Of a DNA stretch of 64,000 nucleotides, positions 20,893 to 52,255 are shown piece after piece. The notes under the pieces were generated by a model. It saw only the letters and a program-made list of their open reading frames with translations, searched no databases and was not told where the DNA came from. The number at the start of each line of letters is the position of its first letter. The stretch's first letter is position 1. This DNA is from Ilumatobacter fluminis. GTDB taxonomy: Bacteria > Actinomycetota > Acidimicrobiia > Acidimicrobiales > Ilumatobacteraceae. The position numbers and the translations under genes were made by a program. The stretch lies in assembly GCF_004364865.1 (NCBI RefSeq), contig NZ_SOAU01000001.1, forward strand, positions 4,062,001 to 4,126,000, given 5' to 3'.

Positions 20893-21168
20893 ATGCTGCG
20901 ACCTGCGACGACGGATGCCCTCGACCGCTTGATCGCGTCGGCCTTCGACGTCGATCGGGAGCTCGACATGGCGCTCGTCCAGCTCGGCGTGTTGCCGCCG
21001 CTCGACCTGTCGGTGATCCGCTCCTGGCTCACCCTCGACGGGGTCGGCGTGCGTGCCCGCTGCAACAGTGACGGTCACCGCATCATCGACGTGCTCGTCG
21101 AGCGACGGATCGTCGCCAGCATCGGCCACGACGGTGCCGTCGAGTTGCCCTTCGCCGCCTCAGCCTGA
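20893..21168 (+). CDS. Hypothetical 91-residue protein
   Basis: A small acidic protein I do not recognise. It opens with a helical stretch (ALDRLIASAFDVDRELDMALVQLGVLPPLDLSVIRSWL) and ends in short beta-like segments. There is no signal peptide, membrane helix or metal motif. It is divergent from glgX across 133 bp, and its 3' end overlaps xylB by 9 bp. Amino-acid composition looks like real coding sequence, but support is modest. Confidence 0.55.
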   Translation: MLRPATTDALDRLIASAFDVDRELDMALVQLGVLPPLDLSVIRSWLTLDGVGVRARCNSDGHRIIDVLVERRIVASIGHDGAVELPFAASA

Positions 21169-22584
21169 GATCGCGGCATAGTGCCGCCGTCGCTCGGTGG
21201 CGTCACACGCCGGTTCGACGACCGTGCCGGTACCGAGACGCCACCGGTCGGTGACCGTATCGATCTCGTCGCCGCTCACGACGGCGGCTGCCTGCACGGC
21301 GCTGCCTGCGGCGACCGTTTCGTCGGTCGACGGAACGGTCACCGGACGACCGAGCAGGTCGGCGCAACGCTGACGGTACGCGACCGACCGTGATCCTCCG
21401 CCGACGAGGAAGGTGCGTCCGTCGATGGTCGCACCGACCGAACGGATCGCCTCCACGCCGTACAGCACGCTGCACAACACGCCGTCGTGCGCGGCGAGTG
21501 CGAGCTGTTCTCGGGTGGTCGCGTTGGTGAGGCCGTGGAACGTACCCGTGGCATCGGGCAGGTTCGGGGTGCGCTCGCCGTCGAAGTACGGCACGAGCAT
21601 CGTCGGGCCGGGGTCGTCGACCGCGTCCATGGCGAGTGCGCCCAACCCGGGTGCGTCGGTGCCGAGCCAGCGTGCGACCGTGTCGGTGACCTTGGTTGCG
21701 TTGAGGGTGCAGACGAGCGGGAGGAACGCTCCCGTCGCCGAGGCGAACCCCGCCACGGCACCGGACGGGTCGTGGGTGGGGTTGGAGGAGACGGCGAACA
21801 CGACGCCCGACGTGCCGAGCGAGACCGCGACGTCGCCGGCCCGCAGCCCGAGACCCAGTGCGGCGCCCATGTTGTCACCGGTGCCGGGCCCGACGATCAC
21901 GCCGTCGGGTAGCTCGAGTTCGGCGGCCGCCTCCGCGGTGATCCGACCAGCCGCCTCGGTCGGCCCCAGCACGGTCGGCAGCGCGCCGGGCCAGTCGCCG
22001 ACCGCTGCGGCGAGGAACTCGTCGACGGTCCGGTCGGACACCGGGTCGTACCAGCCGCTGCCCGATGCGTCGCCGCGGTCGGTCACGTGCTCGCCCGTGA
22101 GCCGCCAGGTGAGGTAGTCGTGCGGCAGCATCACCCGCGTCGCACGCTGCAGGGCCTCCGGCTCGTGCGCGGCAACCCAGGCCAGCTTGGAGATGGTGAA
22201 CGAGGCGACCGGCACCGAGCCGGTTCGACGAGCCCACGTGTCGGCGCCGAACCGTTCGACCAGGGCGGCGGCGTCGGGTGCCGATGTCGTGTCGTTCCAC
22301 AGCTTTGCGGCGCGCACCGGGTCGCCTCGTTCGTCGAGGATCACACAGCCGTGTTGCTGCCCGGCGACCGACACGGCGACGACATCGCGTCGCACCTCGC
22401 CGAGCGATCGGGTGGCCGCGACGAGCGCGTCCCACCACGCACGCGGGTCTTGCTCGGAGACCGGTGGCGTGGTGACCGGATGGCGGGCGGTGCCGGACGC
22501 GACCACCTCACCGGTGTCGAGCCGACGCGCCTCGACCTTGACCGACTGGGTCGACGAGTCGATCCCCAGGACGATGGCGGTCAT
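21160..22584 (-). CDS. xylB: Xylulokinase
   Basis: It phosphorylates D-xylulose to xylulose-5-phosphate for the pentose phosphate pathway. The 474-residue FGGY-family protein begins IVLGIDSSTQSVKVEARRLDTG (phosphate-1 loop) and has AGQQHGCVILDERG, the LTGEHVTDRGDASGSGWYD segment, GPGTGDNMGAALGLG and VAVSLGTSGVVFAVS (phosphate-2), then LVGGGSRSVAYRQRCADLLGRPV. These are xylulokinase rather than glycerol-kinase signatures. ATG overlaps the preceding cysteine-hydrolase stop (22581-22584), and xylA lies just beyond, so this is a xylose-catabolic operon end. Confidence 0.93.
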   Translation of the reverse strand: MTAIVLGIDSSTQSVKVEARRLDTGEVVASGTARHPVTTPPVSEQDPRAWWDALVAATRSLGEVRRDVVAVSVAGQQHGCVILDERGDPVRAAKLWNDTTSAPDAAALVERFGADTWARRTGSVPVASFTISKLAWVAAHEPEALQRATRVMLPHDYLTWRLTGEHVTDRGDASGSGWYDPVSDRTVDEFLAAAVGDWPGALPTVLGPTEAAGRITAEAAAELELPDGVIVGPGTGDNMGAALGLGLRAGDVAVSLGTSGVVFAVSSNPTHDPSGAVAGFASATGAFLPLVCTLNATKVTDTVARWLGTDAPGLGALAMDAVDDPGPTMLVPYFDGERTPNLPDATGTFHGLTNATTREQLALAAHDGVLCSVLYGVEAIRSVGATIDGRTFLVGGGSRSVAYRQRCADLLGRPVTVPSTDETVAAGSAVQAAAVVSGDEIDTVTDRWRLGTGTVVEPACDATERRRHYAAISG

Positions 22585-23144
22585 CCGCTGCCGCCGGAGA
22601 AGTCGACATCGGCGGCTGCGACCGTGCCTGCCTCGCGCCCCGGCGCGCTCTGGAACTTCCAGTAGAGGTTGGTGTGGGCGATGACCTGTTCGGGCGCCGG
22701 CGCACCCCACTCCGACAGGTCTTCGGTGGTGTGGGCGTCGCCGACCAGGAGCGCGTCGTACCCCCGGGCGAGCGCTCCGTGCAGGGTGGAACGCACGCAC
22801 ATGTCGGTCTGTGCGCCGGTGACGATGAGCCTGCCGACGCCGAGATCGGCGAGCCGTTCCTCGAAGTCGGTGGCTTCGAACGAATCGCCGTACTGCTTGT
22901 ACACGATCGGCTCGTCCGGAGCGGGTGCGAGTTCGGGCACGATCTGCCACTCGTCGGAGTCGCGGGCGAGTTCGTCGTCGTCGTGCTGGACCCAGACGAC
23001 GGGTACCGACGCGTCGCGCGCCCGGTCGACGAGGTCGCCGATCGCCGCCACGACCTCGTCGCGGCGGACGGCTCCGCCGACGACGCCGGTCTGGACGTCG
23101 ATCACGACGAGTGCGGAGTTGGGGCGATCGGTCAGTGTCGTCAT
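22581..23144 (-). CDS. Isochorismatase-like cysteine hydrolase
   Basis: The 187-residue protein has the full catalytic triad of the isochorismatase/nicotinamidase superfamily: Asp16 (VVIDVQ), Lys83 (VYKQYGDSF) and Cys116 (TGAQTDMCVRST). The cis-peptide region just before Cys is conserved. Substrates in the family include nicotinamide, isochorismate and ureidoacrylate; none is indicated here. It sits between xylA and xylB and is coupled to xylB by a 4-nt overlap, unusual for a xylose operon. Confidence 0.9.
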   Translation of the reverse strand: MTTLTDRPNSALVVIDVQTGVVGGAVRRDEVVAAIGDLVDRARDASVPVVWVQHDDDELARDSDEWQIVPELAPAPDEPIVYKQYGDSFEATDFEERLADLGVGRLIVTGAQTDMCVRSTLHGALARGYDALLVGDAHTTEDLSEWGAPAPEQVIAHTNLYWKFQSAPGREAGTVAAADVDFSGGSG

Positions 23145-23193: not shown

Positions 23194-24531
23194 TCAGCTG
23201 GCGGTGTCGATGTGGCGGGCGACGAGCCGCTCGAGCAGTTCCTGGCGGCCCGACACCGGCTGCGGTTCGTGGCCCGAGGCGACCAAGTCGTCGTGGATCT
23301 CCTGCAGGCTGATCTTGCCGTCGAGGATCTCGCGTGCCTCCGGTGTGTCCCAGCCCGCGTACCGCTCGGCACGGCGGCGATCGAGTTCGCCCTCGTCGAT
23401 GATCGACTGGGCGACGAGCAACGACTTGGCGAGGGTGTCCATCGCGCCGATGTGGGCGATGAACAGATCGTCGCGGCTGATCGACTGACGCCGGATCTTG
23501 CAGTCGAACATCATGCCGCCGGTCGTGAAGCCACCGCCGCGCATGATCTCCAACATGCCGAGCGACATGTCCTCGACCGAGGTCGGGAACAGGTCGAGAT
23601 CCCAGCCGAGCCGGTCGTCGCCTGCGTTCGCGTCGACCGATCCGAAGATGCCGGCGCCCACGGCCGTCGCGACCTCGTGGTGGAAGTCGTGTCCCGACAG
23701 GGTGGCGTGGTTGACCTCGATGTTGACCTTGATCTCGTCTTCGAGCCCGTACTTCTGCAGGAATGCGAACACCGTCGCGACGTCGTAGTCGTACTGGTGC
23801 TTCGTGGGCTCCATCGGCTTCGGCTCGATCAGCAGCGTGCCCTCGAATCCGATGTCGTACTTGTGCTGCACGACCATGTTCATGAACCGACCCATCTGAT
23901 CGAGCTCACGCGACATGTCGGTGTTCAGCAGCGTCTCGTAGCCCTCACGACCACCCCACAGCACATAGTTCGCACCGCCCAACTCGTGCGTCTTCTGCAT
24001 GCAGTGCGCCACCTGTGCCGCTGCGTAGCGGAACAGGTCGGGGTCGGGATTCGTCGACGCTCCCGACATGAACCGTGGATGCGAGAACGCGTTGGTCGTG
24101 CCCCACAGCAGTTCGACGCCGGTGTCGGCCATCTTCTGACCGGCGTAGTCGACCATCTCGTCGAAGTACCGACACGTCTCCGCGAACGTCGCGCCCGCCG
24201 GAGCGATGTCGATGTCGTGGAACGAGAAGTACGGCGTGCCGAGCTTGGCGAAGAACTCGAACGCGGCGTCCATCTTCATGCGCGCCGCCTCCATCGGGTC
24301 GAGACCGGGTGCCACGGACGGGTGCCACGGACGGTCGAGCGTGCCGGCACCGAAGATGTCGAAGCCGTCCCACGCGAACGAATGCCAGTAGCAGACACCG
24401 AACCGCAGGTGCTCGGCCATCGTTCGGTCACCCACCACCCGATCCGGCTGATACCACCGGAACGCCAATGGGTCAGCCGACGCCGGCCCCCCGAACGGAA
24501 TCGAATCGACAGTGTCGAAGAACTCGGTCAT
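23194..24531 (-). CDS. xylA: Xylose isomerase (class II-like length)
   Basis: It converts D-xylose to D-xylulose using two divalent metal ions. The 445-residue protein begins EFFDTVDSIPFGGPASADPLAFRWY, with catalytic His in FSFHDIDIAP, metal ligands in LLIEPKPMEPTKHQYDYD, IEVNHATLSGHDFHHE and GSVDANAGDDRLGWDLDLFPT. The long N-terminus and ~440-residue length are class II (E. coli-like), not the ~390-residue class I of Streptomyces. GAGGAGTAGCC precedes the ATG. Confidence 0.95.
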   Translation of the reverse strand: MTEFFDTVDSIPFGGPASADPLAFRWYQPDRVVGDRTMAEHLRFGVCYWHSFAWDGFDIFGAGTLDRPWHPSVAPGLDPMEAARMKMDAAFEFFAKLGTPYFSFHDIDIAPAGATFAETCRYFDEMVDYAGQKMADTGVELLWGTTNAFSHPRFMSGASTNPDPDLFRYAAAQVAHCMQKTHELGGANYVLWGGREGYETLLNTDMSRELDQMGRFMNMVVQHKYDIGFEGTLLIEPKPMEPTKHQYDYDVATVFAFLQKYGLEDEIKVNIEVNHATLSGHDFHHEVATAVGAGIFGSVDANAGDDRLGWDLDLFPTSVEDMSLGMLEIMRGGGFTTGGMMFDCKIRRQSISRDDLFIAHIGAMDTLAKSLLVAQSIIDEGELDRRRAERYAGWDTPEAREILDGKISLQEIHDDLVASGHEPQPVSGRQELLERLVARHIDTAS

Positions 24532-27128: not shown

Positions 27129-27132
27129 GGCG

Positions 27133-28020: not shown

Positions 28021-28072
28021 GTCGTTCCCCCTCCTCAGGTGGTGATCGGCCGCCCCCACGACGGCCGTCGGA

Positions 28073-28480: not shown

Positions 28481-28522
28481 TCGTTCGTCCTCGATCCTTC
28501 CGCTCGTCTCGTCCGGTCCGTC

Positions 28523-29767
28523 TCAGCTCCGGTATGCCTCGCGCCCGACGCCCTGCACGGGAATGCCTTGCGAGGCGAGCACGTCGTGCTGCAGCGAGTA
28601 CATCGCCGCCGCCGCCTCGTCGATGTGGCGCGTGAAGGCCATCGATCCCTGGAGGATCGGCTTCAGGAGCTCCTTCTCCTGCACACGTGCGAGTGGGTAC
28701 TCGTGCTCGACGATCAGCGGGGTGGTGCTGATGTCGAGGTCGAGCAACTCGCGGACGGCGAGCTGGTGGTCGAGCCAGTCGACGGTGCGGTTCTGGAGGT
28801 AGGCGAGCGGGTCGTGCCGGGCGGTGCCCGGCAACTCGTGCTCGCACAGGACGGTCTGGATCTTCCACGAGTTCGCCTGGTCGGCGGGGTTCTCCGAGAC
28901 GTGGCCGTCGACCCAGTCGCCGCGCTCCATCGTCTGGCCGCCGTACCCCCAGGCGCTGACGCCGCGAGCGTCGACGACCTGGCCCTTGACGTGCAGCCCG
29001 GCGACGAGGAAGTCGTACCCCTCGTCCTTCAGGTACTGGAACATCGACCGGGTGTCCTGGCCCATCAGCACCGAGTGGGACGGGTCGTAGTGGACCCGGA
29101 ACTGATCGCCGACACCGTTGCGCTCGCAGATCCGGTGGAGGGCGATCCACGCCGCCGGCGTGTAGCCGATGTTGTTGTGGAAGTGGTCGGACGGCGTCCA
29201 GCCCGGCATCGGGCACTGTTCGACGCGGTACTGGAGCCCACGGTCCTTGGCCGCCTGCAGCAACGGCACGAACGTCTGCTCGAACTCGATCAGGTTCTGA
29301 TCCATCGACTTCGACTGGTCACGCCCGACGAAGCCGCACACGGCCGGCACCCCGAGCAGCACCGCCGTATCCATCACCCGGAGCATGAAGTCGACCTTGC
29401 TCTGCCGGATCGACGCGTCCTCGTGGAGGAGATTGTCGAAGTAGGCGATGTCGGCGATGGTCACGCCGGTCTCGTCGATGGCGGCCTGCACCCGCTTGGC
29501 TCGGGTCTCGTCGAACGGGTCGCGTAGGTCGAGCGTGTTGGCGACCGGGTCGAGCATGGCCTCGGGGGGCACGTCGGCGAGCGATGGGTGCACCGCAGCG
29601 GAGAGTTCGATGCAGTCGGCGCCGAGTTCGGCGGCGAACTCCAGCCATTCCTCGATCGCCAGATCGGGATCGGGGTCGCGTCGCTCGCGTGGGGTCAGCT
29701 CCTGGAGTGCGGCGGTGAGCACACCGACCGGCATGGTCTCCGGGGCGAAGGGTCGTGGTTCGGGCAT
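28523..29767 (-). CDS. Sugar phosphate isomerase/epimerase (TIM barrel), 414 aa
   Basis: A longer AP-endonuclease-2-fold TIM barrel. Visible features are [72 protein letters not shown] (metal Asp/His), [10 protein letters not shown] and [15 protein letters not shown] (metal Glu/His). About 100 residues longer than usual, with insertions near the active site. The start at 29767 has GGAGAACC upstream; the upstream extended frame overlaps the next gene and is rejected. Probably acts on a sugar or cyclitol intermediate together with the dehydrogenase encoded 19 bp upstream. Confidence 0.87.
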
Positions 29768-29786
29768 GTGGTTCTCCTTCTCGGGG

Positions 29787-30965
29787 TCAGCGGCTGAGGT
29801 CGACGGGGCGGTGTTCACGGGCGGAGACGATCGCTGCGTCGAGCACACGCTGGGTGTTGAGGGCGTCGGCGAAGTCGGGCATCGGCACGAGCGGCTCCTT
29901 CCCGGCGAGCATCGCCACGATGTCGGCGGCCTGGTTGACGAATCCGTGCTCGTACCCGAGGCCGTGACTGTCGGGCCACCAGGCATCGGCGTACGGGTGG
30001 CCGTCGCCGCCACGCGTGACGTCGATCGTGCGCCAGCCCGCCGTGGCGCCGTCCTCGTTGTCGTAGAACCCGAGCTCGTTCATGCGCTCGAAGTCGAAGC
30101 GCAGCGCGCCCCGCTCACCGTGGATCTCGAACCGGTTGGCGTTGTGATAGCCGGTCGCGAGGCGCGACGCCTCGAACGAGGCCAGTCCTCCGCCGCTCAG
30201 GCGACCGAGGAACATGACGGCGTCGTCGACCGTGCTCGTGCCGGTCGCCGCCCCGCTCCCGGCACCGGCTCCGGCGATCTCACCGCCGGTGCTCTCGGCC
30301 AGGGCGCGTTCGGTGATGAAGGTGTGTTCGATCGCGCCGTCGACCGAGACGATCTCCTCGCCCGTGACGAAGCGAACGGCGTCGATGATGTGGGCGTTCA
30401 GGTCGCCGTGGGCGCCCGATCCGGCGATGTCGCCCTGGAAGCGCCACACGAGTGGTGTGTCCGGCCCGCCCCAACTCTGGAGATAGCACGCTCGGGCGTG
30501 GTAGATCCGTCCCAGGCCACCGGATGCCACGATGCGGTGCGCCAGAGCGACGGCCGGGACGCGGCGGTAGTTGTACCAGACGAACGTCTTGGCCGATGAT
30601 GCTGCGGCTGCGGCGACCATCGCCTCGGCGTCGGCCAGGGTGCCGGCGAGCGGCTTCTCGCAGACGACGTGCTTGCCGGCCTCGAGCGCGGCGATCGCCT
30701 GCTCGGCGTGCACGTGGTTCGGAGTCGCGATGTCGATCAGGTCGACGTCGGCATCGGCGACGGCGGTTCGCCAGTCGGTGGTCGTGTTGGCCCACCCCCA
30801 CCGCTCGGCGAACTCGCGGAGCTCGACCTCGTTGCGGCCGGCGACGGTGTGCATGACCGGGTTCCGTGCGACATCGAAGAACCGACCGACGTTGAGCCAG
30901 GCGTTCGAGTGGGCACGGCCCATGAACTTCGACCCGATGAGGGCGATGTTGAGCTGGTCGGTCAC
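29787..30965 (-). CDS. Gfo/Idh/MocA-family NAD(P)-dependent oxidoreductase
   Basis: The 392-residue protein has an N-terminal Rossmann fold ([17 protein letters not shown], degenerate GxGxxG), the family signature VCEKPLAGT with catalytic Lys, and the C-terminal alpha/beta domain ([18 protein letters not shown]). Members oxidise sugars or inositols at a ring or chain hydroxyl. A good AGGAGG precedes the GTG start. A Gly/Ala/Thr-rich insert ([15 protein letters not shown]) near residue 235 is odd and may be a surface loop. Confidence 0.9.
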
Positions 30966-39256: not shown

Positions 39257-39518
39257 GTCTCGCGCGACCCCGCCGGGCAGTTCGCCGAGCCGCTCCTCGA
39301 GCGCGTCGCCCAACCGGTCTAGCGCGTTGGGACCATGACCAAGGAGGGATTGCGTCCAGGCCGCGCCGGGTGCGACGTTGACGGCGGGGCATCACCGATG
39401 TCCGAGTCAGCGGGTCTGGGGGGTCCGACACCACGTGCGTCGACGACGCGCGTCGTCGTGCGCCGCACTCGGACCCAGGGGCGTCCCACCGTTCCGACGG
39501 ATAACGAGAGGGGATCCC

Positions 39519-42500
39519 ATGAACACGAGACGTCGTCTCGTCGCGATGGTCGCCGCACTGGCGACCACACTCGGCCTGTTGGTCGTGCCGGTGACACCGG
39601 CCGCGGCCCAAGAGGCAACCGACCATTCCATCCTGGTCTTTTCGAAGACCGCGGCGTTCCGCCACGGCTCGATCGAGACCGGGGTCCAAGCCATCGAGGA
39701 CCTCGGTGCTGCGAACGGGGTCACGGTCGATGCGACCGAGGACGCCACCGCGTTCACCGAGGAGAACCTGAGCCAGTACTCGGCGGTCATCTGGATGTCG
39801 ACGACCGGCGACGTCCTGAACGCCGACCAGCAGGCCGCGTTCGAGTCGTACATCCAGTCGGGTGGCGGCTACGTCGGCATCCACGCCGCATCCGACACCG
39901 AGTACAGCTGGCCATGGTACGCCGACCTGGTCGGCGCATACTTCGCCGGCCACCCGGCCGTCCAGGAGGCGACGGTCGTCACGGAGGATCACGTCCACCC
40001 GTCGACCGCCCACCTCGACACCGAGTGGGCCCGCACCGACGAGTGGTACAACTTCGATCGCAACCCGCGTGTCGACGTCCACGTGCTCCAGTCACTCGAC
40101 GAGAGCACGTACAACGCCGGAGGATCGGCGATGGGTATCGACCATCCGATCACCTGGTGCCACGACTACGACGGCGGACGTTCCTGGTTCACCGGGCACG
40201 GCCACACCAACGCAACGTTCGCAGAGCCCGACTTCCTCGACCTCCTGTGGGGCGGCATCGAGTACGCCGCCGGCATCGCCGCCGGCGACTGCGGCGCCAC
40301 CGACTGGGACAACTTCCAGAAGGTCACGCTGGACGACAACACGAGCAACCCGATGACGCTCGAGGTCGCACCCGACGGCCGGGTCTTCTACATCGACCGG
40401 AACGGGGCGGTGCGGATCATCCACACCGACGGCAGCATCACGCAGGCCGGCTCGGTCGACGTGTACACGGGCCAGGAGTTCGGCCTGATCGGGCTCGCGC
40501 TCGATCCCGACTTCGAGAACAACGGCTTCATCTACCTCACCTACTCGCCCGACGACGGCATACCGCACGACCAGGTGTCGCGCTTCACGATGGTCGGCGA
40601 CACCTTCGACACCGCGACCGAGGTCGTCGTGCTCGACATCCCGACCCAGCGCGATCAGTGCTGCCACGCCGGCGGCGAGATCGAGTTCGACAGCCAGGGG
40701 AACCTCTACATCGCGACCGGTGACAACACGAACCCCTTCGCGTCGAGCGGCTACGCGCCGATCGACGAGCGCGACGGACGTTCGGCATGGGACGCCCAGG
40801 GCACCTCCGCGAACTCCAACGCCCTGATGGGCAAGGTGCTGCGCATCACCCCGCAACCCGACGGCAGCTACACGATCCCGGACGGGAACCTGTTCGACGA
40901 GGCACTCGACACCGACGACCTGACCCGTCCCGAGATCTACGCAATGGGCTTCCGGAATCCGTTCCGGATCGGCATCGACCCGCTGACCGACAAACTGCTC
41001 CTCGCCGACTACGGACCCGACGCCGGCAGCGCCAACGCGAACCGTGGCCCCGACGGCCGCGTCGAGTGGAACATCGTCGACCAGCCGGGCTTCTACGGAT
41101 GGCCGTACTGCGTCGGTGACAACACGCCGTACATCGACTTCGACTTCGAGACGAGCACGTCCGGCAGCGCCTTCGACTGCACGAACGGTCCGGTCAACGA
41201 CTCGCCGAACAACACCGGCATCAGCCAGCTCCCGGCTCCGATCGCGGCCGACCAGTGGTACGGCAAGTCGTCGACGGGCACGCCGGAGATCGGCACCGGC
41301 GGCGCGCCGATGGCCGGACCCGTCTACCGCTACGACCCGGCGAGCACGTCGGAGGTCAAGTGGCCCGAGTACTGGGACGGCAAGGCGATCTTCGGCGAGT
41401 GGAACCGGACGACGAACGGCATGTTCTCGTTCCAGGTCGACGACGACGTCGACGGCGTCGAGAAGATCAATCAGATGTTCCCCGGCGACACCTTCCGTCG
41501 ACTGATGGCGTTCGACTTCGGACCCGACGGCGCCCTGTACTTCATCGAGTGGGGCTCCGGCTTCGGCGGCAACAACGCCGACTCCGGCATCTACCGCATG
41601 GAGTACGCCGGCAACGCCCGGACCCCGATCGCCCGACTCACCGCCGACGTCACCAACGGCCCCCTCCCGCTCGAGGTGAACTTCGCCTCGACCGGTTCGT
41701 ACGACCCCGACGGCGGCCCGGTCACGACCGAGTGGGACTTCGACGGTGACGGCACGACCGACTCGACCGACCCGAACCCGACCCACACGTACACCGTCGC
41801 CGGCGACTACCAGGCTCGCCTGATCGTCACCGACGACGAAGGCGTGACGGCGTCGTCGACCGTCACGATCACCGCCGGCAACACCGCACCGGTGATCACC
41901 ATCGACACCCCGCCCAACGGCGGCTTCATGTCGTTCGGCGACACGATCTCGTACAGCGTGACCGTCACCGACGCCGAGGACGGAACGATCGACTGCGATC
42001 GGGTGATCACCCAACCCGCACTCGGGCACGACGAACACGCCCACGGGTACGAGCAGTACGCCGGCTGCAGCGGCAGCTTCCCGATTCCGGGTGACACGGG
42101 CCACGTCGGCGCCAACATCTTCGGCATCGTCACGGTCACCTACACCGACGACGGCGGCGCCAACGGCGCCGGCAGCCTGACGACCCAGGAGATCGTCGAA
42201 CTCCGGCTGCGCCACACCGAAGCCGAGTACTTCGCCGAGACCGGCAGGGTCGCCGGCGGCGTCGGCACCGACAACCCCGGTGTCCAGACCGAGGGCACGA
42301 CCGACGTCGGTGGTGGCCAGAACATCGGCTTCATCCAGGACGGCGACTGGTGGTCGCTCGAACCGGCGAACCTGACCGGCATCGACACCGTCGACGTGCG
42401 AATCGCGTCGGCCCGCTCGGGTGGCGTCCTCGAGATCCGCACCGATGCACCGGACGGCCCGCTCGTCGGGTCGACGACGATCACCGGCACCGGTGGTTGG

Positions 42501-45500
42501 CAGTCGTGGCAGACCGTCACGATCGACCTCGACGACGACGTCACGAGCGACAGCGTGTACTTCGTCGCCGACGCACCGTCGGGCGACACGGGCTACCTGT
42601 TCAACGTCAACTGGATGGAGTTCCAGGGCGTCGGCGTGAGCGAGAACCGTGCTCCCGCGGTGTCGGTTTCGGCGACCCCCGTCGAGGGCACCGCCCCGCT
42701 GGAGGTGGCGTTCACGGCGACGGCCACCGACCCGGACGGGGACACCGACCTCTCCTACGACTGGACGTTCGGCGACGGAGCCGTCGGGACGGGCGAGAAC
42801 CCGACCCACGTGTACGGCAGCCCGGGCGACTACACCGCCACGGTCACCGTGACCGACCCGAGCGGCGCCGCCGGCACCGCCTCGATCGATGTCTCGGTCA
42901 CCCCGGGCGCGATCGACGAGTGCTTGGCGGGACGGTCGGACGACTTCCTCGGTTCGCTGCTCGACACCGATCGGTGGACCGTGGTCCGAGAGAGCCAGGA
43001 GCTGCGGGTCGAGGACTCGCATCTGGTGATCCCGCTGACGGCCACCGACATCTACGGCGCCAACAACACCGACACCCCGAACATCGTGCTGCAGCCGCTT
43101 CCGAGCGGCGCCGTGACGATCACCACGAAGGTGACCGGCCGGTTCTACGACGCGTACGAACAGGGCGGCCTGATCCTCTACCAGGACGACGACAACTACA
43201 TGAAGTTCGTCTTCGAGGGTCGCACGACCAGTGGTGAGAACGCCGCCAACCGGGTGTTCCAGTTCGTGTCGGAGGCCGATGGTTCGCCGAACGAGACCAA
43301 CTCGCCGGCCGTCGGCGCCGGGTTCCCCGACACGGCGTACCTCCAGCTGCGCATCGACGCCGCCGGCATCGTCGAGGGATTCCACTCCACCGACGGCGTC
43401 ACCTGGACGAGCATGGGAGTGACCGGCGACGTGTCCGGCTACACCCACGCCCAGATGGGGTTGATGGCACTCGCCGGCAACAACCGGAACGAGGACGAGG
43501 AAGCGTCGTTCGACTGGTTCTCGGTGACGCCCGACGACACCGCCGGATCGGCCGGTCCGAACGACGAGTTCGACGGTACGACGCTCGACCTGTGTCGATG
43601 GAATCGCAGCGTCCGACTCGACGACACCGCCTACGCCGTCACCGACGGTGCGCTGGTGCTCGAGACGGGCAACGGTGACATCTACCAGGGCACGGCGACG
43701 GATCCGACCAACTTCATCCTGCAGGATCAGCCCGGCGACGAGTGGACGGTCGAGACCAAGCTCGACACGTCGCAGCTCGCCGAGCGGTACCAGCAGGCCG
43801 GTCTGATGGTCTACGTCGACGACGACCACTACGTGAAGTGGAACATGCTCGCCACGAACACGGCTGGCAACGCCGTGACGACCAACCTCGAGTTCCGGAA
43901 CGAGATCGACGGCACCATCGCCGGCCCGAACTCGAACGTGAACGGGGTGGCACGTGGCGACCTGTGGCTGCGGTTGAGTCGGTCGGGTGACACGTTCTCG
44001 GCGTCGTACTCGCTCGACGGCACGACGTGGACGGACGCGGCGAACCCCGTGACGAACGCCCTCGTGGCGGCGAACGGCGCCGTCGGTGTGTTCACGATCG
44101 GCACCAACCAGTCGGCACCGGTGCCGGTGGCGTTTGACTACTTCCGGGTGGTCGAGGAGCCGGTGGACACCACGCCGCCGGCGATCTCGGCGAGCCTGCA
44201 CGGCGCCTTCACGGGAACGATCCTTCCCGCCGTCGGTTCCGACCTCGCCGGCTCGGCCGAGATGATCGTCACCTCGACCCAGACGACGATGACGGCCGAC
44301 CTCACCGGCCTCGAACCCGAAGGCGAGTTCTCTGCGCACCTCCACGTCGGCACCTGTGCCGCCGTCGAGGCGCACTACATGGACGACCCCGACGGTCCGA
44401 TGGCACCACCCAACGAGTTGTGGCTGCGCGATCCGGGCCAGAACACGTTCGTCGCCGACAGCAGCGGCGCTGCATCGCCGAGCGGTGATGCGCCGTGGGC
44501 GGCGCGGTCGACGGCGCAGGCCGTGATGGTCCACGCCGGCGACACGGGACTGCCCCGTGGGTGCGCCACCCTCGACACCTCGTCGGGTGAGGTCCAGGTG
44601 GTGCTCGATGCCGCTGACGACCTGCCGGGCCAGGTGTACGTCGAGTACCGCGTCGGCGGCGGCGAGTGGAGCGAGTACACGACGGCCGTGACCGTCTCGG
44701 AGCCCGGCGACCACGTCGTCGAGTTCCGGGCGTCGGACACCGCCGGCAACGTCAGCGAGGTCGGGACGGCGACGTTCTCGATCCGCGCACCGCTCACCCT
44801 CGACGCGGTCACCGTCGACCCGGCGACGCCTGACGGCGCCGACGGCTGGTACGTCGGTCCGGTCACGGTCGCCGGTGTCGCGAGCGACCCGGCCGCCACG
44901 GTCGAGTTCTCGGTCGACGGCGCTCCGTTCGCCGCCGGCGACGACGGCTCGGTCGTCGTGGGCGGCGACGGTGCCCACACGGTCGCGGTGCGGGCGGTTC
45001 GTGGTGACGAGACGACCGATTCGACGACGGTCGAGTTCGCGATCGACGCCACGGCGCCGGTCGTCACGGTCGACGGTGTCGCCGACGGCGGAAGCGCCGG
45101 CAACGCGGGAGCCGTCGCCGTGTCGGCGGAGGACGCCACGAGCGGCGTCGCCTCGCTGACGGTGGCCCTCGACGGGGTCACCGTCGGGACCGAGTTCGGG
45201 CTCGACGGCCTGGCGCTCGGTCAGCACACGCTGACGGCCACCGCCGTCGACGTGGCCGGCAACGCAACGACATCGACCATCGTGTTCACAGTGGTGACGT
45301 CGTACGGCGACATCGACGCCCTCATCACCCGCTATGTCGACGAGGGCCGGCTCGACCCGGCCACCGCCGACAGCCTGCGAGGCGACCTCGACAAGTCGCT
45401 CGGCTTCGCCGAGCGCGGCAAGTCGAAGCAGGCCAAGCAGTGGGTGCAGCGGGCGATCGACACCGCCGTCGGCATCCCCGACGCCGGCGTGCGCGGCGTG

Positions 45501-45539
45501 CTCGTGAGCTCGCTCACCGACCTGTACCAGCAGGTGTAG
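39519..45539 (+). CDS. Secreted ThuA / sugar-dehydrogenase / PKD / CBM6 / FIMAH mosaic protein
   Basis: A 2006-residue exported protein. A Sec signal peptide ends PAAAQ (about residue 31). Approximate parts: ThuA-like domain 34-245 (HSILVFSKTAAFRHGSI; GGGYVGIHAASDTEY); six-bladed glucose/sorbosone dehydrogenase propeller 268-690 (FGLIGLALDPDF; GKVLRITPQPDGS; MGFRNPFRIGIDP); PKD 700-784; CBM6-like 900-1035; PKD 1044-1128; two concanavalin-like modules 1134-1337 and 1347-1544; CHRD-like 1552-1694 with FSAHLHVGTC; Ig-like modules 1705-1925; FIMAH-like C-terminus 1928-2000. It may oxidise and bind polysaccharide-derived sugars outside the cell. GAGAGGGG precedes the ATG. The upstream in-frame extension lacks a signal peptide and is rejected. 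Confidence 0.9.
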   Translation: MNTRRRLVAMVAALATTLGLLVVPVTPAAAQEATDHSILVFSKTAAFRHGSIETGVQAIEDLGAANGVTVDATEDATAFTEENLSQYSAVIWMSTTGDVLNADQQAAFESYIQSGGGYVGIHAASDTEYSWPWYADLVGAYFAGHPAVQEATVVTEDHVHPSTAHLDTEWARTDEWYNFDRNPRVDVHVLQSLDESTYNAGGSAMGIDHPITWCHDYDGGRSWFTGHGHTNATFAEPDFLDLLWGGIEYAAGIAAGDCGATDWDNFQKVTLDDNTSNPMTLEVAPDGRVFYIDRNGAVRIIHTDGSITQAGSVDVYTGQEFGLIGLALDPDFENNGFIYLTYSPDDGIPHDQVSRFTMVGDTFDTATEVVVLDIPTQRDQCCHAGGEIEFDSQGNLYIATGDNTNPFASSGYAPIDERDGRSAWDAQGTSANSNALMGKVLRITPQPDGSYTIPDGNLFDEALDTDDLTRPEIYAMGFRNPFRIGIDPLTDKLLLADYGPDAGSANANRGPDGRVEWNIVDQPGFYGWPYCVGDNTPYIDFDFETSTSGSAFDCTNGPVNDSPNNTGISQLPAPIAADQWYGKSSTGTPEIGTGGAPMAGPVYRYDPASTSEVKWPEYWDGKAIFGEWNRTTNGMFSFQVDDDVDGVEKINQMFPGDTFRRLMAFDFGPDGALYFIEWGSGFGGNNADSGIYRMEYAGNARTPIARLTADVTNGPLPLEVNFASTGSYDPDGGPVTTEWDFDGDGTTDSTDPNPTHTYTVAGDYQARLIVTDDEGVTASSTVTITAGNTAPVITIDTPPNGGFMSFGDTISYSVTVTDAEDGTIDCDRVITQPALGHDEHAHGYEQYAGCSGSFPIPGDTGHVGANIFGIVTVTYTDDGGANGAGSLTTQEIVELRLRHTEAEYFAETGRVAGGVGTDNPGVQTEGTTDVGGGQNIGFIQDGDWWSLEPANLTGIDTVDVRIASARSGGVLEIRTDAPDGPLVGSTTITGTGGWQSWQTVTIDLDDDVTSDSVYFVADAPSGDTGYLFNVNWMEFQGVGVSENRAPAVSVSATPVEGTAPLEVAFTATATDPDGDTDLSYDWTFGDGAVGTGENPTHVYGSPGDYTATVTVTDPSGAAGTASIDVSVTPGAIDECLAGRSDDFLGSLLDTDRWTVVRESQELRVEDSHLVIPLTATDIYGANNTDTPNIVLQPLPSGAVTITTKVTGRFYDAYEQGGLILYQDDDNYMKFVFEGRTTSGENAANRVFQFVSEADGSPNETNSPAVGAGFPDTAYLQLRIDAAGIVEGFHSTDGVTWTSMGVTGDVSGYTHAQMGLMALAGNNRNEDEEASFDWFSVTPDDTAGSAGPNDEFDGTTLDLCRWNRSVRLDDTAYAVTDGALVLETGNGDIYQGTATDPTNFILQDQPGDEWTVETKLDTSQLAERYQQAGLMVYVDDDHYVKWNMLATNTAGNAVTTNLEFRNEIDGTIAGPNSNVNGVARGDLWLRLSRSGDTFSASYSLDGTTWTDAANPVTNALVAANGAVGVFTIGTNQSAPVPVAFDYFRVVEEPVDTTPPAISASLHGAFTGTILPAVGSDLAGSAEMIVTSTQTTMTADLTGLEPEGEFSAHLHVGTCAAVEAHYMDDPDGPMAPPNELWLRDPGQNTFVADSSGAASPSGDAPWAARSTAQAVMVHAGDTGLPRGCATLDTSSGEVQVVLDAADDLPGQVYVEYRVGGGEWSEYTTAVTVSEPGDHVVEFRASDTAGNVSEVGTATFSIRAPLTLDAVTVDPATPDGADGWYVGPVTVAGVASDPAATVEFSVDGAPFAAGDDGSVVVGGDGAHTVAVRAVRGDETTDSTTVEFAIDATAPVVTVDGVADGGSAGNAGAVAVSAEDATSGVASLTVALDGVTVGTEFGLDGLALGQHTLTATAVDVAGNATTSTIVFTVVTSYGDIDALITRYVDEGRLDPATADSLRGDLDKSLGFAERGKSKQAKQWVQRAIDTAVGIPDAGVRGVLVSSLTDLYQQV

Positions 45540-46424: not shown

Positions 46425-47654
46425 ATGAGCAACACCAACGCCACCGGGGCGAGAAGCGAATCGGTTCGCCTGATGAACCAGTCCGTCGTGCTGCGCGCCG
46501 TCCACCTGGCCGGTGAACAGAGCCGGTCGGCGCTGGTCCCTGCGACCGACCTGACGCGCGGCGCCGTCGGCACGATCGTCGGCGACCTGGTCGGCCTCGG
46601 TCTCCTCGAGGAAGAACGGGCGATGTCCGACGGCAGCCCGGGTCGGCCGTCGACCCTCGTCCGACCGAGCGGTCGAGCCGTCGTCATCGCCTTCGACCTC
46701 CGGGTCGAGACGATCGCAGTCGGCGTCTTCACGCTCGGCGGCAGGCGACTCGCCGGCACCAGGATCTCTCGCGACCACGATCGAGGACCGGAACACACGG
46801 TCGACGAACTCGCCGTCATCGCCCGTGGACTGCTCGAGCTCCTGCCGGCCGACACCGTCGTCCACGGGGTCGGGGCGGCGATCGCCGGCCTGGTTCGTCA
46901 CGACGACCAACTCGTGGTGAGCGGCCCCAACCTCGGCTGGCGCGACGTCCCCCTCGGTGACTTGCTCCGCGATCGGCTGGGCCCCGACATCCATGTGGCG
47001 GTCGGCAACGACGCCGACCTCGGCGCGCTCGCGGAGAGCCGGCGCGGCGCGGCGGTCGGACTCGACGATCTGGTCTACATCTCCGGCGAGGTCGGCATCG
47101 GCGGCGGCATGATCGTCGGAGGACGCCCACTCATCGGATCGGCCGGTTGCTCGGGCGAGGTCGGCCACATTCCCGTCAATCCGATCGGGATCGACTGCAA
47201 CTGCGGATCGATCGGCTGCTGGGAGACCGAAGCGGGCGACCACGCGCTGTTCCGTCGGGTCGGCCGTCCCGACGTCGTCGGGAGCGCCGCGATCGAGGCG
47301 ATCGTGCGCGACGCGATCGCAGGCGACCGGAAGGTGCTGGCCGCGATCGACGAGCAGGCCCGGTGGATCGCCTTCGGACTCGCCGGGATCATCAACGTGT
47401 TCGACCCCGACATGGTGGTGCTCGGAGGATCGCTCGCTCGGCTCCACCCGCACATCGCAGCGACGCTCGACCGCGAACTCGACCGGCGGGTCTTCGACGT
47501 CATCCGCTCGCGGGTGCGCGTCGTGCCGAGCGCGCTCGGCATCGACTCGATGCTCATCGGGGCGGCCGAGTGGGCCTGGGACCGGGTCCTGACCGAACCC
47601 GCTCACGCCGCGAACGGCGTCGCCGTGCCGAAGATCGTCCGCCGTATCGCTTGA
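46425..47654 (+). CDS. ROK-family transcriptional repressor (XylR/NagC type)
   Basis: The 409-residue protein has an N-terminal winged helix (about 12-75: [46 protein letters not shown]). The ROK sugar-kinase-like domain follows, with [44 protein letters not shown] and the zinc motif [10 protein letters not shown]. It probably binds xylose or a related sugar and releases DNA. It precedes the XylF-like binding-protein gene by 178 bp, and both upstream regions share an operator-like sequence, indicating autoregulation and control of uptake. Confidence 0.92.
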
Positions 47655-47832: not shown

Positions 47833-49980
47833 ATGAGAAGCAGCCTGAAGAAGGGCGCCGTGCTCGTCGCGGCACTCTCGCTCGTCGCAGCAGCATGCGG
47901 CGACGACGATGACGGTGGCGACACCACCGACGCGCCGGACGATTCCGGCGACGACGCAGACGCCGGTGACGACGGCGACTCGGGCGACTCGGGCGACGAC
48001 GGGGACTCCGGCGATGCGGCCGGCGGCAAGGTGGGGTTCATCTTGCCGGACTCGGCGTCGTCGGCTCGTTGGGAGGACTTCGATCGTCCGTTGATCGAAG
48101 CTGCGTGTGACGAGGCCGGGATCGAGTGCCTGATCCAGAACGCCGAAGGCGACAAGGACAACATGGCCACGATCGCCGACCAGATGATCGCCGACGGCAT
48201 CGGCGTGCTCGCGATCGTGAACCTCGACTCCGAGTCCGGCGCCGCGATCCAGGAAAAGGCCGCCGCGGCCGGCGTGAAGAACATCGACTACGACCGTCTC
48301 ACCCTCGGCGGCTCCGCCGACGTGTACGTCAGCTTCGACAACGTCGCCGTCGGAACCACCCAGGGCGAAGGCCTGATCGAATGCTTCGGTGGCGACACCG
48401 AAGGCAAGCGGATCATCCAGCTCCACGGTTCACCGACCGACAACAACGCGACCCTGTTCCGTGAGGGCTACCAGGCCGCCATCGAAGGCGCCGGGTTCGA
48501 AACCGTCGGCGAAGAAGCCGTGCCCGACTGGGACAACGCCCAGGGCGGCGTCATCTTCGAGCAGCTCCTGACCGCCGCCGGCGGCCAGGTCGACGGTGTC
48601 CTCGTCGCCAACGACGGCCTGTCGCTCGCCGCGCAGGCAGTGCTCGCCGACAACGGCCTCACCCTGCCGACCACGGGCCAGGACGCCACCGTCGACGGAC
48701 TCCGCGCCATCCTCCAGGGCACCCAGTGCATGACCGTCTACAAGCCCGTCGTCGTCGAGGCCGAAGCCGCGGTCGCCGCCGCGGTCGCGCTCCTCAACGA
48801 CGAAGCACCCGACACCGACGCCACCATCGACAACGAGAACGGCGAGATCCCGTTCGTCCAAGGCGAAGTCACCGGCATCTTCATCGACAACATCAACGTC
48901 CCCATCGACGACGGCTTCGTCAGCGCCGCCGACGTGTGTGCCGGTCTCGAGGACCTGTGCGCCGAGGCGGGCATCTCGACCGACGGTTCGTCGGGTGACG
49001 ATGGCGACGAGGGTGCGTCGGCGGACGGCAAGGTGGGGTTCATCTTGCCGGACTCGGCGTCGTCGGCTCGTTGGGAGGACTTCGATCGTCCGTTGATCGA
49101 AGCTGCGTGTGACGAGGCCGGGATCGAGTGCCTGATCCAGAACGCCGAAGGCGACAAGGACAACATGGCCACGATCGCCGACCAGATGATCGCCGACGGC
49201 ATCGGCGTGCTCGCGATCGTGAACCTCGACTCCGAGTCCGGCGCCGCGATCCAGGAAAAGGCCGCCGCGGCCGGCGTGAAGAACATCGACTACGACCGTC
49301 TCACCCTCGGCGGCTCCGCCGACGTGTACGTCAGCTTCGACAACGTCGCCGTCGGAACCACCCAGGGCGAAGGCCTGATCGAATGCTTCGGTGGCGACAC
49401 CGAAGGCAAGCGGATCATCCAGCTCCACGGTTCACCGACCGACAACAACGCGACCCTGTTCCGTGAGGGCTACCAGGCCGCCATCGAAGGCGCCGGGTTC
49501 GAAACCGTCGGCGAAGAAGCCGTGCCCGACTGGGACAACGCCCAGGGCGGCGTCATCTTCGAGCAGCTCCTGACCGCCGCCGGCGGCCAGGTCGACGGTG
49601 TCCTCGTCGCCAACGACGGCCTGTCGCTCGCCGCGCAGGCGGTGCTGTCCGACAACGGCCTCACCCTGCCGACCACGGGCCAGGACGCCACCGTCGACGG
49701 ACTCCGCGCCATCCTCCAGGGCACCCAGTGCATGACCGTCTACAAGCCCGTCGTCGTCGAGGCCGAAGCCGCGGTCGCCGCCGCGGTCGCGCTCCTCAAC
49801 GACGAAGCACCCGACACCGGCGCCACCATCGACAACGAGAACGGCGAGATCCCGTTCGTCCAAGGCGAAGTCACCGGCATCTTCATCGACAACATCAACG
49901 TCCCCATCGACGACGGCTTCGTCAGCCGTGACGATGTGTGCGACGGCATCGAGGACGCCTGCGAGGCCGCAGGCCTCTAG
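47833..49980 (+). CDS. xylF: XylF-like sugar-binding lipoprotein with two near-identical ligand domains
   Basis: The 715-residue lipoprotein has signal AALSLVAAACGDDDD, an acidic linker (about 24-63), then two type I sugar-binding domains, residues 65-364 and 399-698, joined by an acidic linker. Both carry the XylF hallmark YDRLTLGGSADVYVSFDNVAVG. Over 300 residues they differ only at two positions (LADNG/LSDNG, DTDAT/DTGAT). The normal family member has one domain (~330 residues). After each core a diverged tail follows (DVCAGLEDLCAEAG and DVCDGIEDACEAAG). Xylose is the likely ligand. A GAAGGGGG ribosome site precedes ATG 47833. Confidence 0.93.
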   Translation: MRSSLKKGAVLVAALSLVAAACGDDDDGGDTTDAPDDSGDDADAGDDGDSGDSGDDGDSGDAAGGKVGFILPDSASSARWEDFDRPLIEAACDEAGIECLIQNAEGDKDNMATIADQMIADGIGVLAIVNLDSESGAAIQEKAAAAGVKNIDYDRLTLGGSADVYVSFDNVAVGTTQGEGLIECFGGDTEGKRIIQLHGSPTDNNATLFREGYQAAIEGAGFETVGEEAVPDWDNAQGGVIFEQLLTAAGGQVDGVLVANDGLSLAAQAVLADNGLTLPTTGQDATVDGLRAILQGTQCMTVYKPVVVEAEAAVAAAVALLNDEAPDTDATIDNENGEIPFVQGEVTGIFIDNINVPIDDGFVSAADVCAGLEDLCAEAGISTDGSSGDDGDEGASADGKVGFILPDSASSARWEDFDRPLIEAACDEAGIECLIQNAEGDKDNMATIADQMIADGIGVLAIVNLDSESGAAIQEKAAAAGVKNIDYDRLTLGGSADVYVSFDNVAVGTTQGEGLIECFGGDTEGKRIIQLHGSPTDNNATLFREGYQAAIEGAGFETVGEEAVPDWDNAQGGVIFEQLLTAAGGQVDGVLVANDGLSLAAQAVLSDNGLTLPTTGQDATVDGLRAILQGTQCMTVYKPVVVEAEAAVAAAVALLNDEAPDTGATIDNENGEIPFVQGEVTGIFIDNINVPIDDGFVSRDDVCDGIEDACEAAGL
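48025..48924 (+). repeat. 900-bp direct repeat, first copy
   Basis: Codes for ligand domain 1 of the double XylF-like protein. It matches 49027-49926 at constant offset 1002 bp; I counted four differing bases, two of them changing amino acids. Confidence 0.93.
49027..49926 (+). repeat. 900-bp direct repeat, second copy
   Basis: Codes for ligand domain 2. Identity drops abruptly at both edges: the following ~51 bp of homologous tail is only about 65% identical to the equivalent stretch after copy 1. Confidence 0.93.
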
Positions 49981-50147: not shown

Positions 50148-50924
50148 ATGAGTGCTGACACTCCGCTCCTCGAAGTGAGGGGCGTCAACAAGTCGTTCGG
50201 ACCGGTACACGTCCTGCACGACGTCGACTTCACCGTGTACCCGGGCACCGTCACCGCGTTGATCGGCGACAACGGCGCCGGCAAGTCGACGCTGGTGAAG
50301 AGCATCACCGGCATCTACGGCTGCGACTCGGGCCGGTTCCGGTTCGAAGGGAACGACGTCGAGATCGACGGGCCTCGCGACGCCGCCGAGCTCGGGATCG
50401 AGGTCGTGTACCAGGACCTCGCGCTGTGCGAGAACCTCGACATCGTCCAGAACATGTTCCTCGGCCGCGAGCGGTTGTCGAAGGGCCTGCTCGACGAGCA
50501 CTCGATGGAACAGGCCGCACGCGACACCCTCGCCGGGCTCGGCGTTCGCACGGTCAAGAGCGTCCGCCAGCTCGTGTCGTCGCTGTCGGGCGGTCAACGC
50601 CAGACGGTCGCCATTGCGAAGGCCGTGCTCTGGAACTCGAAGGTCGTGCTCCTCGACGAGCCGACCGCGGCGCTCGGCGTCGCCCAGACCCGCCAGGTGC
50701 TCGACCTGGTCCGCCGGCTCGCCGAGCAGGGCCTCGGCGTCGTGCTGATCTCGCACAACATGAACGAGGTCCTCGAGGTGTCCGACCGTGTCGCCTGCAT
50801 GTATCTCGGCCGGGTCGTGGCCGACGTCGAGGTCGACGACGCGACCACCCGAGAGTTCCTCGTCGAACTGATCACGTCCGGCCGCTCGGGCGACGTCGGC
50901 CTGCACGAGGAGGCGACCGTCTGA
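50148..50924 (+). CDS. xylG: Sugar ABC transporter ATPase, single-module XylG-like
   Basis: A 258-residue ATPase with Walker A IGDNGAGKSTLVKSI, Q-loop VYQDLALCENLDIVQNMFLGRE (typical of carbohydrate uptake class 2), signature LSGGQRQTVAIA, Walker B VVLLDEPTAALG and H-loop LISHNM. Classical XylG/RbsA is a ~500-residue fusion of two such modules; this has only one, so a homodimer is expected. TGAGGGGGACCC lies upstream. It follows the binding-protein gene and overlaps the permease gene by 1 nt (TGATG). Confidence 0.9.
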   Translation: MSADTPLLEVRGVNKSFGPVHVLHDVDFTVYPGTVTALIGDNGAGKSTLVKSITGIYGCDSGRFRFEGNDVEIDGPRDAAELGIEVVYQDLALCENLDIVQNMFLGRERLSKGLLDEHSMEQAARDTLAGLGVRTVKSVRQLVSSLSGGQRQTVAIAKAVLWNSKVVLLDEPTAALGVAQTRQVLDLVRRLAEQGLGVVLISHNMNEVLEVSDRVACMYLGRVVADVEVDDATTREFLVELITSGRSGDVGLHEEATV

Positions 50925-52255
50925 TGAGCGACGTCACGACCGCCACCACCCCCGGAGACGACGACGCCGGCAGCAGCGCGGCCGCCGACTCCCCCATCGC
51001 CACCCAGGCTGCGAGCGACTTCGCGCTCGACACCGCACCGCGCGACCTGCGCGGAGCGATCGACGACTCGATCGCCCGTCTCAAGGGCGGCCAGCTCGGC
51101 TCACTGCCTGCGATCCTCGCCATCATCGTGCTCGTCACGGTGTTCGGCGCCGTCAGCCCCGACAGCTTTCTGTCGAAGATCAACTTCGCGAACTTCCTCG
51201 AACAGTCGTCCGCGGTCATCGTGATCGCAATGGCGGTGACCTTCGTCCTGCTCCTCGGCGAGATCGACCTGGCCGCCGGATTCACCGCCGGTGTGTCGGC
51301 CGCCGTCCTCGCGACGCGACTCGAGGAATGGTCGCTGATACCGGCGTTGATCGCGTCGATGTTGGTGGCCATGCTGCTCGGGTCGTTCACCGGATTCATG
51401 GTCGCCCGCGTCGGCATCCCGTCGTTCGTGGTGACGCTCGCGAACTTCCTGCTCTTCCAGGGCATCCTGCTGCAGCTCGTCCGCCAGGGCGGCAGTGTGC
51501 GGATCGACAACCAGATCGTGAAAGACATGGTCGGCGGTTCGATGAGCCCGGCCGTCTCGTGGATCTTCACCGTCACCACGCTCGTGCTCTACGGCATCTC
51601 CCTCGTCCGCCGTCAGCGGATGTCGCACGGTGCGGTCCCCGTGTCGCTCATCGCGATCAAGTGGGGCCTCGCTGCCGTCGGCGCTGCCGTCGTCACCGTG
51701 ATCCTCAACCAGAACCGTGCCTTCCCGAACGCCCCCGCACCGATCGAGGGCATGCCCTACGTCGTACCGCTCGTGCTCGTCCTGTTGCTCGTCCTCACGT
51801 TCATCCTGACCCGAACCCGCTATGGGCGACACCTCTATGCCGTCGGCGGCAACGCCGAGGCGGCGCGGCGTGCCGGCATCAACGTGACCCGTATTCGGCT
51901 GTCGGCCTTCACGGCAACGGGGCTGATCGCCGGCATCGGCGGCATGTTCCTCGCCTCGCGCGTCAACTCGGTCGACCCGAACACCGGTGCCAACGACACC
52001 TTGTTGCTGGCGGTCGGCGCCGCGGTGATCGGCGGCACGTCGTTGTTCGGCGGCCAGGGCCGGATGCTCAACGCCGTGCTCGGCGGCTTCGTGCTCGCGC
52101 TCATCCCGAACGGTCTGACACTCGTCGGCAAGCAGGACATCCCGGGTTTCGGCGAGGTCGACTTCGGCAGCTCCGGCATCAAGTTCATGTGCGCCGGGCT
52201 CGCCCTGCTGCTGGCATCGAGCGTCGACGCACTGAGCCGCAAGCGAGGTACCTGA
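50924..52255 (+). CDS. xylH: Sugar ABC transporter permease, XylH-like
   Basis: A 443-residue permease of the ribose/xylose/galactose class with about 10 membrane segments after an acidic ~55-residue N-terminus. LLLGEIDLAAGFTAGVSAAV, RVGIPSFVVTLANFLLFQG, GRHLYAVGGNAEAARRAGINV (coupling loop) and GAAVIGGTSLFGGQGRMLNAVLGG are family signatures. GAGGAGGCG lies before ATG 50924, which overlaps the ATPase stop. It completes the xylFGH-type importer. Confidence 0.92.
   Translation: MSDVTTATTPGDDDAGSSAAADSPIATQAASDFALDTAPRDLRGAIDDSIARLKGGQLGSLPAILAIIVLVTVFGAVSPDSFLSKINFANFLEQSSAVIVIAMAVTFVLLLGEIDLAAGFTAGVSAAVLATRLEEWSLIPALIASMLVAMLLGSFTGFMVARVGIPSFVVTLANFLLFQGILLQLVRQGGSVRIDNQIVKDMVGGSMSPAVSWIFTVTTLVLYGISLVRRQRMSHGAVPVSLIAIKWGLAAVGAAVVTVILNQNRAFPNAPAPIEGMPYVVPLVLVLLLVLTFILTRTRYGRHLYAVGGNAEAARRAGINVTRIRLSAFTATGLIAGIGGMFLASRVNSVDPNTGANDTLLLAVGAAVIGGTSLFGGQGRMLNAVLGGFVLALIPNGLTLVGKQDIPGFGEVDFGSSGIKFMCAGLALLLASSVDALSRKRGT

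Follow-up and report, generated by a model that had tools for sequence, protein, structure and literature searches.

A two-domain receptor gene and its surroundings

We describe here a gene of Ilumatobacter fluminis that encodes a sugar receptor of ordinary kind in an unusual, tandem form. The window, by which we mean the whole 64,000-nucleotide stretch of DNA that was analysed, belongs to a genome labelled G000, or "own" in comparisons; its relatives are given G-numbers and their loci L-numbers. The features that concern us are as follows, with their basis in brackets.

46425..47654, plus strand: ROK-family regulator, upstream of the receptor gene (profile match)
47833..49980, plus strand: double XylF-like (CUT2) substrate-binding lipoprotein, 715 aa (open reading frame and profile matches)
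47833..47898, plus strand: signal peptide with lipobox, ...LVAAAC (read in the translation)
47899..48027, plus strand: linker joining the anchor to domain 1, acidic and of low complexity, about 43 residues (translation)
48028..48924, plus strand: domain 1 core; near-identical block 48024-48924 (repeat alignment)
48925..48978, plus strand: domain 1 tail AADVCAGLEDLCAEAGIS, its DNA 64.8% identical to that of the domain 2 tail (alignment; positional pattern with G002)
48979..49029, plus strand: inter-domain linker, 17 residues (translation)
49030..49926, plus strand: domain 2 core; near-identical block 49026-49926 (repeat alignment)
49927..49980, plus strand: domain 2 tail RDDVCDGIEDACEAAGL and stop (translation; tail site patterns)
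50148..50924, plus strand: ABC ATPase with a single nucleotide-binding domain (NBD), 258 aa (profile match)
50921..52255, plus strand: sugar permease, BPD_transp_2, 444 aa (profile match)
23194..24531, minus strand: xylose isomerase XylA, 621.3 against an equivalog cut-off of 533.25 (profile match)
21160..22950, minus strand: xylulokinase XylB, 432.7 against an equivalog cut-off of 380.25 (profile match)

The receptor matches Peripla_BP_4 (PF13407) in two stretches, with 313.4 bits against a gathering cut-off of 35.1, and each half covers profile positions 2-257 of 258, which bears out the initial annotation's reading of two complete sugar-binding domains in one lipoprotein. Following the lipobox rule, we take Cys22 to be the lipid anchor. 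The ROK gene adjoins the receptor gene in most of the relatives examined, in some of them on the opposite strand.

The name XylF, also given by that annotation, is sound as a family resemblance but not as an equivalog assignment. A model of a single domain built with 35 sequences (pLDDT 94.3) has E. coli XylF (3ma0) as its best predicted fold match, with a TM score of 0.89 and 30% identity, and the best PDB match by sequence is likewise XylF (3m9w), but the whole two-domain protein reaches 327.0 bits against the 389.55 of the xylF equivalog TIGR02634. Each domain is thus predicted to share the fold of E. coli XylF and related CUT2/cluster-B proteins, from which the protein differs in carrying two domains per lipoprotein. 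An AlphaFold2 prediction of the full-length double, made from three double sequences only, gave a pLDDT of 36.2 and a pTM of 0.24, too low to place the two domains relative to each other. The motifs YDR, DNN, W, AND, GQD and YK are invariant in the 35 aligned rows (L064, which is close to identical with L063, was omitted here and from the neighbour trees below), and we presume that they are the positions aligned to the sugar contacts of XylF. D-xylose would be the likeliest sugar, and xylA and xylB, 23-27 kb from the receptor gene within the same window, lend this circumstantial weight.

Elsewhere in the window, a plus-strand gene (39378-45539) encodes an apparently secreted protein of 2053 residues with ThuA, GSDH sugar dehydrogenase, CBM6, two PKD and two GH43_C2 stretches, and the strand opposite it is open for 1816 codons. 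Near xylA and xylB, the minus-strand stretch 25953-30965 holds an enolase-superfamily enzyme, two xylose-isomerase-like TIM barrels, and an oxidoreductase that resembles levoglucosan dehydrogenase at a score below that model's cut-off.

Cores, tails and the edges between them

Over 900 bp (48025-48924 against 49027-49926) the two domains differ at four bases (48639/49641, 48645/49647, 48646/49648 and 48818/49820), two of the changes being silent and two altering a residue (Ala to Ser and Asp to Gly); our recount returns exactly the four base and two residue differences first reported. The 54 bp that follow the cores are identical at 35 positions, and this 64.8% agrees with the earlier estimate of about 65%, while the 36 bp before the block, within a low-complexity Asp/Gly/Ser linker, match at 24 (66.7%). 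The copies agree at 309 consecutive sites among the 526 that vary among relatives or between the copies, a run that none of 10,000 shuffles reached, and chance is excluded as the source of the near-identical stretch. The two residue differences, at core positions 207 and 264, lie outside the invariant motifs that we take as the putative sugar pocket. Judged against the single G002 domain, domain 2 seems to carry the derived base at three of the four core differences and domain 1 at the remaining one, and four are too few to name the donor domain.

The block of near-identity runs from four bases before to 896 after the core start in the window gene, with the four differences inside it, and from six before to 895 after in G009, so that its edges are nearly fixed across species and fall near the same codons. 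The left edge is the point at which unlike linkers begin, and to the right there is a tail of about 51 bp followed by unrelated sequence. Because the tail is so short, pairing at the right edge would have little homology to draw on, and a tail that had once diverged would be expected to stay outside any exchange.

The double gene recurs among relatives. A search of 221 genomes of the family found some match in 68, many of them only to the lipoprotein leader or to a distant receptor, and 12 genomes, including that of the window, have a relative at at least 66% identity over at least 100 residues. The double is complete in G000, G009 and G196. In G002 it is partial, the contig starting inside domain 1 and continuing through the tail, the linker and the whole of domain 2, and in G003 and G194 contigs end inside the gene and leave a C-terminal piece with the domain 2-type tail SRDDVC, which suggests that these too are doubles. 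Complete single-domain genes are found in G111, G204 and G207. A scan of named genomes (80 loci) gave three doubles (L054, L055 and, in part, L056), which are G009, G196 and G002 again and are not independent. An order-wide search matched 66 of 397 genomes at 1e-40 and, among the best candidates of each genome (at most two), returned the window's own gene as the only double.

An assembly error, which had been named as the main alternative, would mean that assembly or polishing either duplicated a single domain or forced diverged domains alike. Near-identical 1-kb tandem repeats are difficult with short reads, the gene is indeed cut by a contig end in G002, G003 and G194, and just one complete double of the window type, out of three, comes from a single-contig genome. 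Against this, the window genome is one contig of 4,775,416 bases (4.78 Mb) that is 99.97% complete, and the same architecture, beside the same regulator gene, is found complete in G009 and G196 and in part in G002, where the sequence is specific to each species, the tails are distinct and the linkers differ; nor would a duplicated stretch of reads yield diverged tails common to another species. We therefore regard an artefact as very unlikely. We note that contig ends break the receptor gene in six of the 11 relatives (G002, G003, G194, G205, G206 and G208), and that in G205, G206 and G208 (L040, L043 and L039) the cut falls inside the core, as expected if these were doubles. The permease gene is also split in G207, is partial in G196 (337-444 of 444) and G206 (24-411) and was not found in G205, and contig breaks are no more than a hint of hidden doubles. 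Fragmented assemblies may break such double genes.

Comparison of the domains within and between species, the check that the initial annotation had proposed, finds doubles in relatives and cores that are closer within a gene than between species. Within one gene, the first 900 aligned bases of the two domains show seven differences in the window gene (three of them in the tail), four in G009 (three at the right edge) and 104 in G196, while the same domain differs between species at 54-55 sites for own and G002, 154-158 for own and G009, and 181-188 for own and G196. Silent sites behave in the same way, with a core dS of 0.0093 within the window gene against 0.22-0.23 (own/G002), 0.64-0.67 (own/G009) and 0.96-0.99 (own/G196) between species, so that the copies are closer to each other than to their orthologues with silent sites included, as in concerted evolution. 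The corresponding dS of the ATPase and permease genes is 0.55-0.64 for own/G002 and 0.77-0.98 for own/G009; the receptor gene is slow at silent sites, although this falls far short of explaining 0.0093. The own/G002 value of 0.22 in the receptor core, beside 0.55-0.64 in the neighbours, may reflect codon bias or exchange between species. In G009 the cores are identical over 890 consecutive bases and the tails differ at eight of 51.

Selection on the protein alone, keeping the domains alike with no recombination, would fit the small number of amino-acid differences and the constraint on the G196 pair, but there is almost no divergence at silent sites either (dS 0.0093 against 0.22-1.0 between species), and we find this explanation scarcely credible. 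An old duplication with no homogenisation fares no better. A tree of the cores was built from the domain pairs of own, G009 and G196, the second domain of G002 and 15 single-domain genes, leaving aside G113 and the pieces from G003 and G194. In it the domain pairs cluster by species, with supports of 99 for own, 100 for G009 and 99 for G196. Forcing the cores to group by position costs 611 log units (AU p=0.0002), and an old duplication without homogenisation is therefore rejected.

The tails tell a different history from the cores. Core sites that group by species and by position number 152 and 0 for own/G009, 122 and 0 for own/G196, and 94 and 1 for G009/G196; in the 51-bp tail the counts are 4 and 3, 3 and 3, and 1 and 3 respectively. 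For own and G002 the tail gives 0 sites by species and 14 by position, against 4 and 0 in the adjoining 69-bp piece of core. The cores thus follow species and the tails follow position, most clearly between own and G002. We regard this last comparison as decisive for own and G002: the duplication predates their split, and the cores were homogenised afterwards. For own, G009 and G196 the case for a duplication older than the species split is moderate. The patterns also support homogenisation in more than one lineage.

The G196 gene extends the range of outcomes. Its domains are 88.4% identical, and thus approach the normal divergence of orthologue domains that had been named as an outcome speaking against conversion, but its cores are still each other's closest kin (support 99). 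There is no sign in this pair of a recent or mosaic tract (longest run p=0.19, with 104 differences in 900), and its dN of 0.041 and dS of 0.479 (dN/dS about 0.085) indicate purifying selection. The divergence of the domains, together with the constraint that still acts on them, suggests that neither half is dispensable in G196. Exact identity would not seem to be required everywhere, and homogenisation has not been constant.

Age of the duplication and route of homogenisation

The reading that we favor, with a probability of about 0.78, is that of an older in-frame duplication whose cores have been homogenised by conversion, giving a lipid-anchored two-module receptor for the adjoining importer. 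An ordinary single-domain receptor gene would have been duplicated in tandem and in frame earlier than the divergence from G002; the simplest version has this happen a single time, ahead of the separation of all the double-bearing lineages.

That all the doubles go back to one duplication is the simplest reading of the sequences, with only moderate support. The ROK tree joins own, G003 and G009 (support 99) and then G196 (82), with the single-domain genes outside, and the tree of the ATPase and permease joins own, G003 and G002 (100), then G009 (73) and then G194 (32); owing to the coverage of each locus, G196 is only in the former tree and G002 and G194 only in the latter. All four doubles in which both tails can be read have SRDDVC in the domain 2 tail and S[AE][AD]D in the domain 1 tail, the SRDD tail having also served to class G003 and G194, and a similar SKDD occurs in three single-domain genes (L057, L063 and L064).

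The alternative is that the doubles of own, G002 and G003 arose independently of those of G009 and G196 and were homogenised to different degrees. The two groups, own/G002 and G009/G196, do stand apart in the core tree with single-domain genes between them (supports 42-72), the G009 tails are closer to each other (8/51 differ) than to those of the window gene (15-16/51), the linkers are unlike between the groups, and the Ilumatobacteraceae double CUT2 receptors repeatedly. However, the own tails differ at 18/51, about the tail-by-tail distance between own and G009, and the own duplication is therefore about as old as that split, while the ROK tree sets the own, G003, G009 and G196 genes apart from the single-domain ones. 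Homogenisation is needed whether there was one duplication or several, because tails and cores diverge so unequally in the same gene. We consider separate duplications unlikely.

As for the route, the two copies are direct repeats 1 kb apart, and recombination between them, in the simplest case gene conversion that depends on RecA, would have made the cores alike again, separately in the window-genome and G009 lineages and longer ago in that of G196. The non-homologous linkers on the left and the short diverged tail on the right would mark the ends of homology, which would account for the near-coincidence of the edges between species. Of the routes considered, gene conversion is the most probable; unequal exchange is a rival with chances below even. 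A crossover between domain 1 and domain 2 of sister chromosomes would give three-domain and one-domain alleles, and contraction back to two would homogenise the cores; the last tail stays last and the inner tails stay inner, which locks the tails to position. Unequal exchange thus predicts the same edges and the same pattern of cores by species and tails by position. Three-domain genes were seen neither among the loci searched with the core nor in the family search with PF13407, which gave 115 matches in 70 genomes (the best candidates of each genome, at most 11); this weighs weakly against it because such genes would assemble poorly. Of the initial proposal of recurrent gene conversion acting on an older duplication, the repeated homogenisation is upheld, whereas conversion as its agent shares its predictions with unequal exchange.

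The tandem receptor at work and doubling in the Ilumatobacteraceae

In the favored reading, the lipid-anchored receptor with its two ligand modules would serve the adjoining ABC importer, probably under the ROK regulator. The importer has a single type of permease and an ATPase with a single NBD; presumably each forms a dimer and the whole offers one docking site, at which two equal receptors on one anchor would alternate. Two equal modules per anchor may mean more receptor per transporter, and the pair may aid uptake. The single-NBD ATPase was considered as a companion of the doubling and rejected, since single-domain relatives carry the same kinds of ATPase and permease; the suggestion that a homodimeric transporter is the reason for the doubling falls with it, a single-NBD ATPase and a lone permease accompanying single-domain receptors as well.

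Several known systems share parts of this arrangement. In GlnPQ, tandem domains compete for docking and show no cooperativity in binding, and lengthening the linkers makes transport slower (PMC8025302). GlnPQ-type importers resemble the present case in having two binding domains covalently in series, with competition for one docking site expected, and differ in that their domains are fused to the permease and vary in specificity, whereas here they form a separate lipoprotein and are near-identical including silent sites (PMC8025302). The binding domains here are not fused to a transmembrane domain, the permease being a separate open reading frame (50921-52255). The OpuA pair comes from a dimerised permease-receptor fusion, unlike the tandem gene here. 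OpuA is alike in that two substrate-binding domains serve one importer (PMC11065425).

What we see combines the known use of tandem binding domains with the known concerted evolution of bacterial duplicates, and the homogenisation is well supported. Ubiquitin units are cleaved apart, are short and are often many, whereas the two 300-residue domains here are expected to work joined. Polyubiquitin genes are similar in having homogenised head-to-tail units in one reading frame (PMC10457151). Paralogues of the tufA/tufB type are closer within a genome than to their orthologues, silent sites included, as here; these are separate genes for which full-length homogenisation was studied, and here it acts within one gene, domain by domain and with the tails excluded (PMC6053082). 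Among the matches listed in openly licensed papers on tandem or duplicated binding domains, intragenic conversion, concerted evolution, and xylose or ABC uptake in Ilumatobacter, we found no report of this arrangement. Intragenic concerted evolution of two full-size globular domains in a bacterial transport receptor, with edges that nearly coincide between species, leaves a clean natural trace of the points at which recombination begins and ends within a protein.

Doubling is not confined to this receptor. A PF13407 search of the genus (10 genomes, 33 matches at 1e-15) found doubles in G000, G009 and G008, and one of the family at 1e-30 gave 115 matches in 70 of 221 genomes, representing 110 genes among the best candidates of each genome (at most 11). 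Five of these 110, with the cut gene of G002 counted as single, are double (G000, G009, G196, G008 and G113); they belong to three receptor lineages, and four have domains more than 99% identical. That of G008, a single-contig genome, is an RbsB-like double lipoprotein of 651 residues (L011:1384-3339, minus strand) with domains identical over 867 consecutive bases; it has a single-domain relative in G110 (L208) that is 53% identical, and both genes come after a permease gene. The third lineage is represented by G113 (L037:1465-3699, minus strand), XylF-like and about 42% identical to the window protein, with domains identical over 1022 bases. A sample of the phylum (110 genomes, 54 with matches) showed, among the matches listed, no paired matches in one open reading frame other than the window's. 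From the family and phylum counts, doubling recurs in the Ilumatobacteraceae and looks rare elsewhere, and that it appears in three receptor lineages is the most unexpected of our observations.

This recurrence raises the idea of a lineage habit, in which at least three CUT2 lineages were doubled separately and identity itself is favored, a tethered pair raising ligand capture or hand-over, so that recombination supplies the identical copies and selection keeps them; we entertain it tentatively, as rather improbable. The five doubles of the family, two of them in single-contig genomes, include recently homogenised and long-diverged pairs and, with their single-domain relatives, form a comparative set that bears on whether equal tandem receptors aid uptake or are a mere residue of recombination between direct repeats. 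As to the neighbours of the other doubles, a gene for Sugar-bind (PF04198) follows the receptor gene in G008, and an ABC ATPase gene lies downstream of that in G113.
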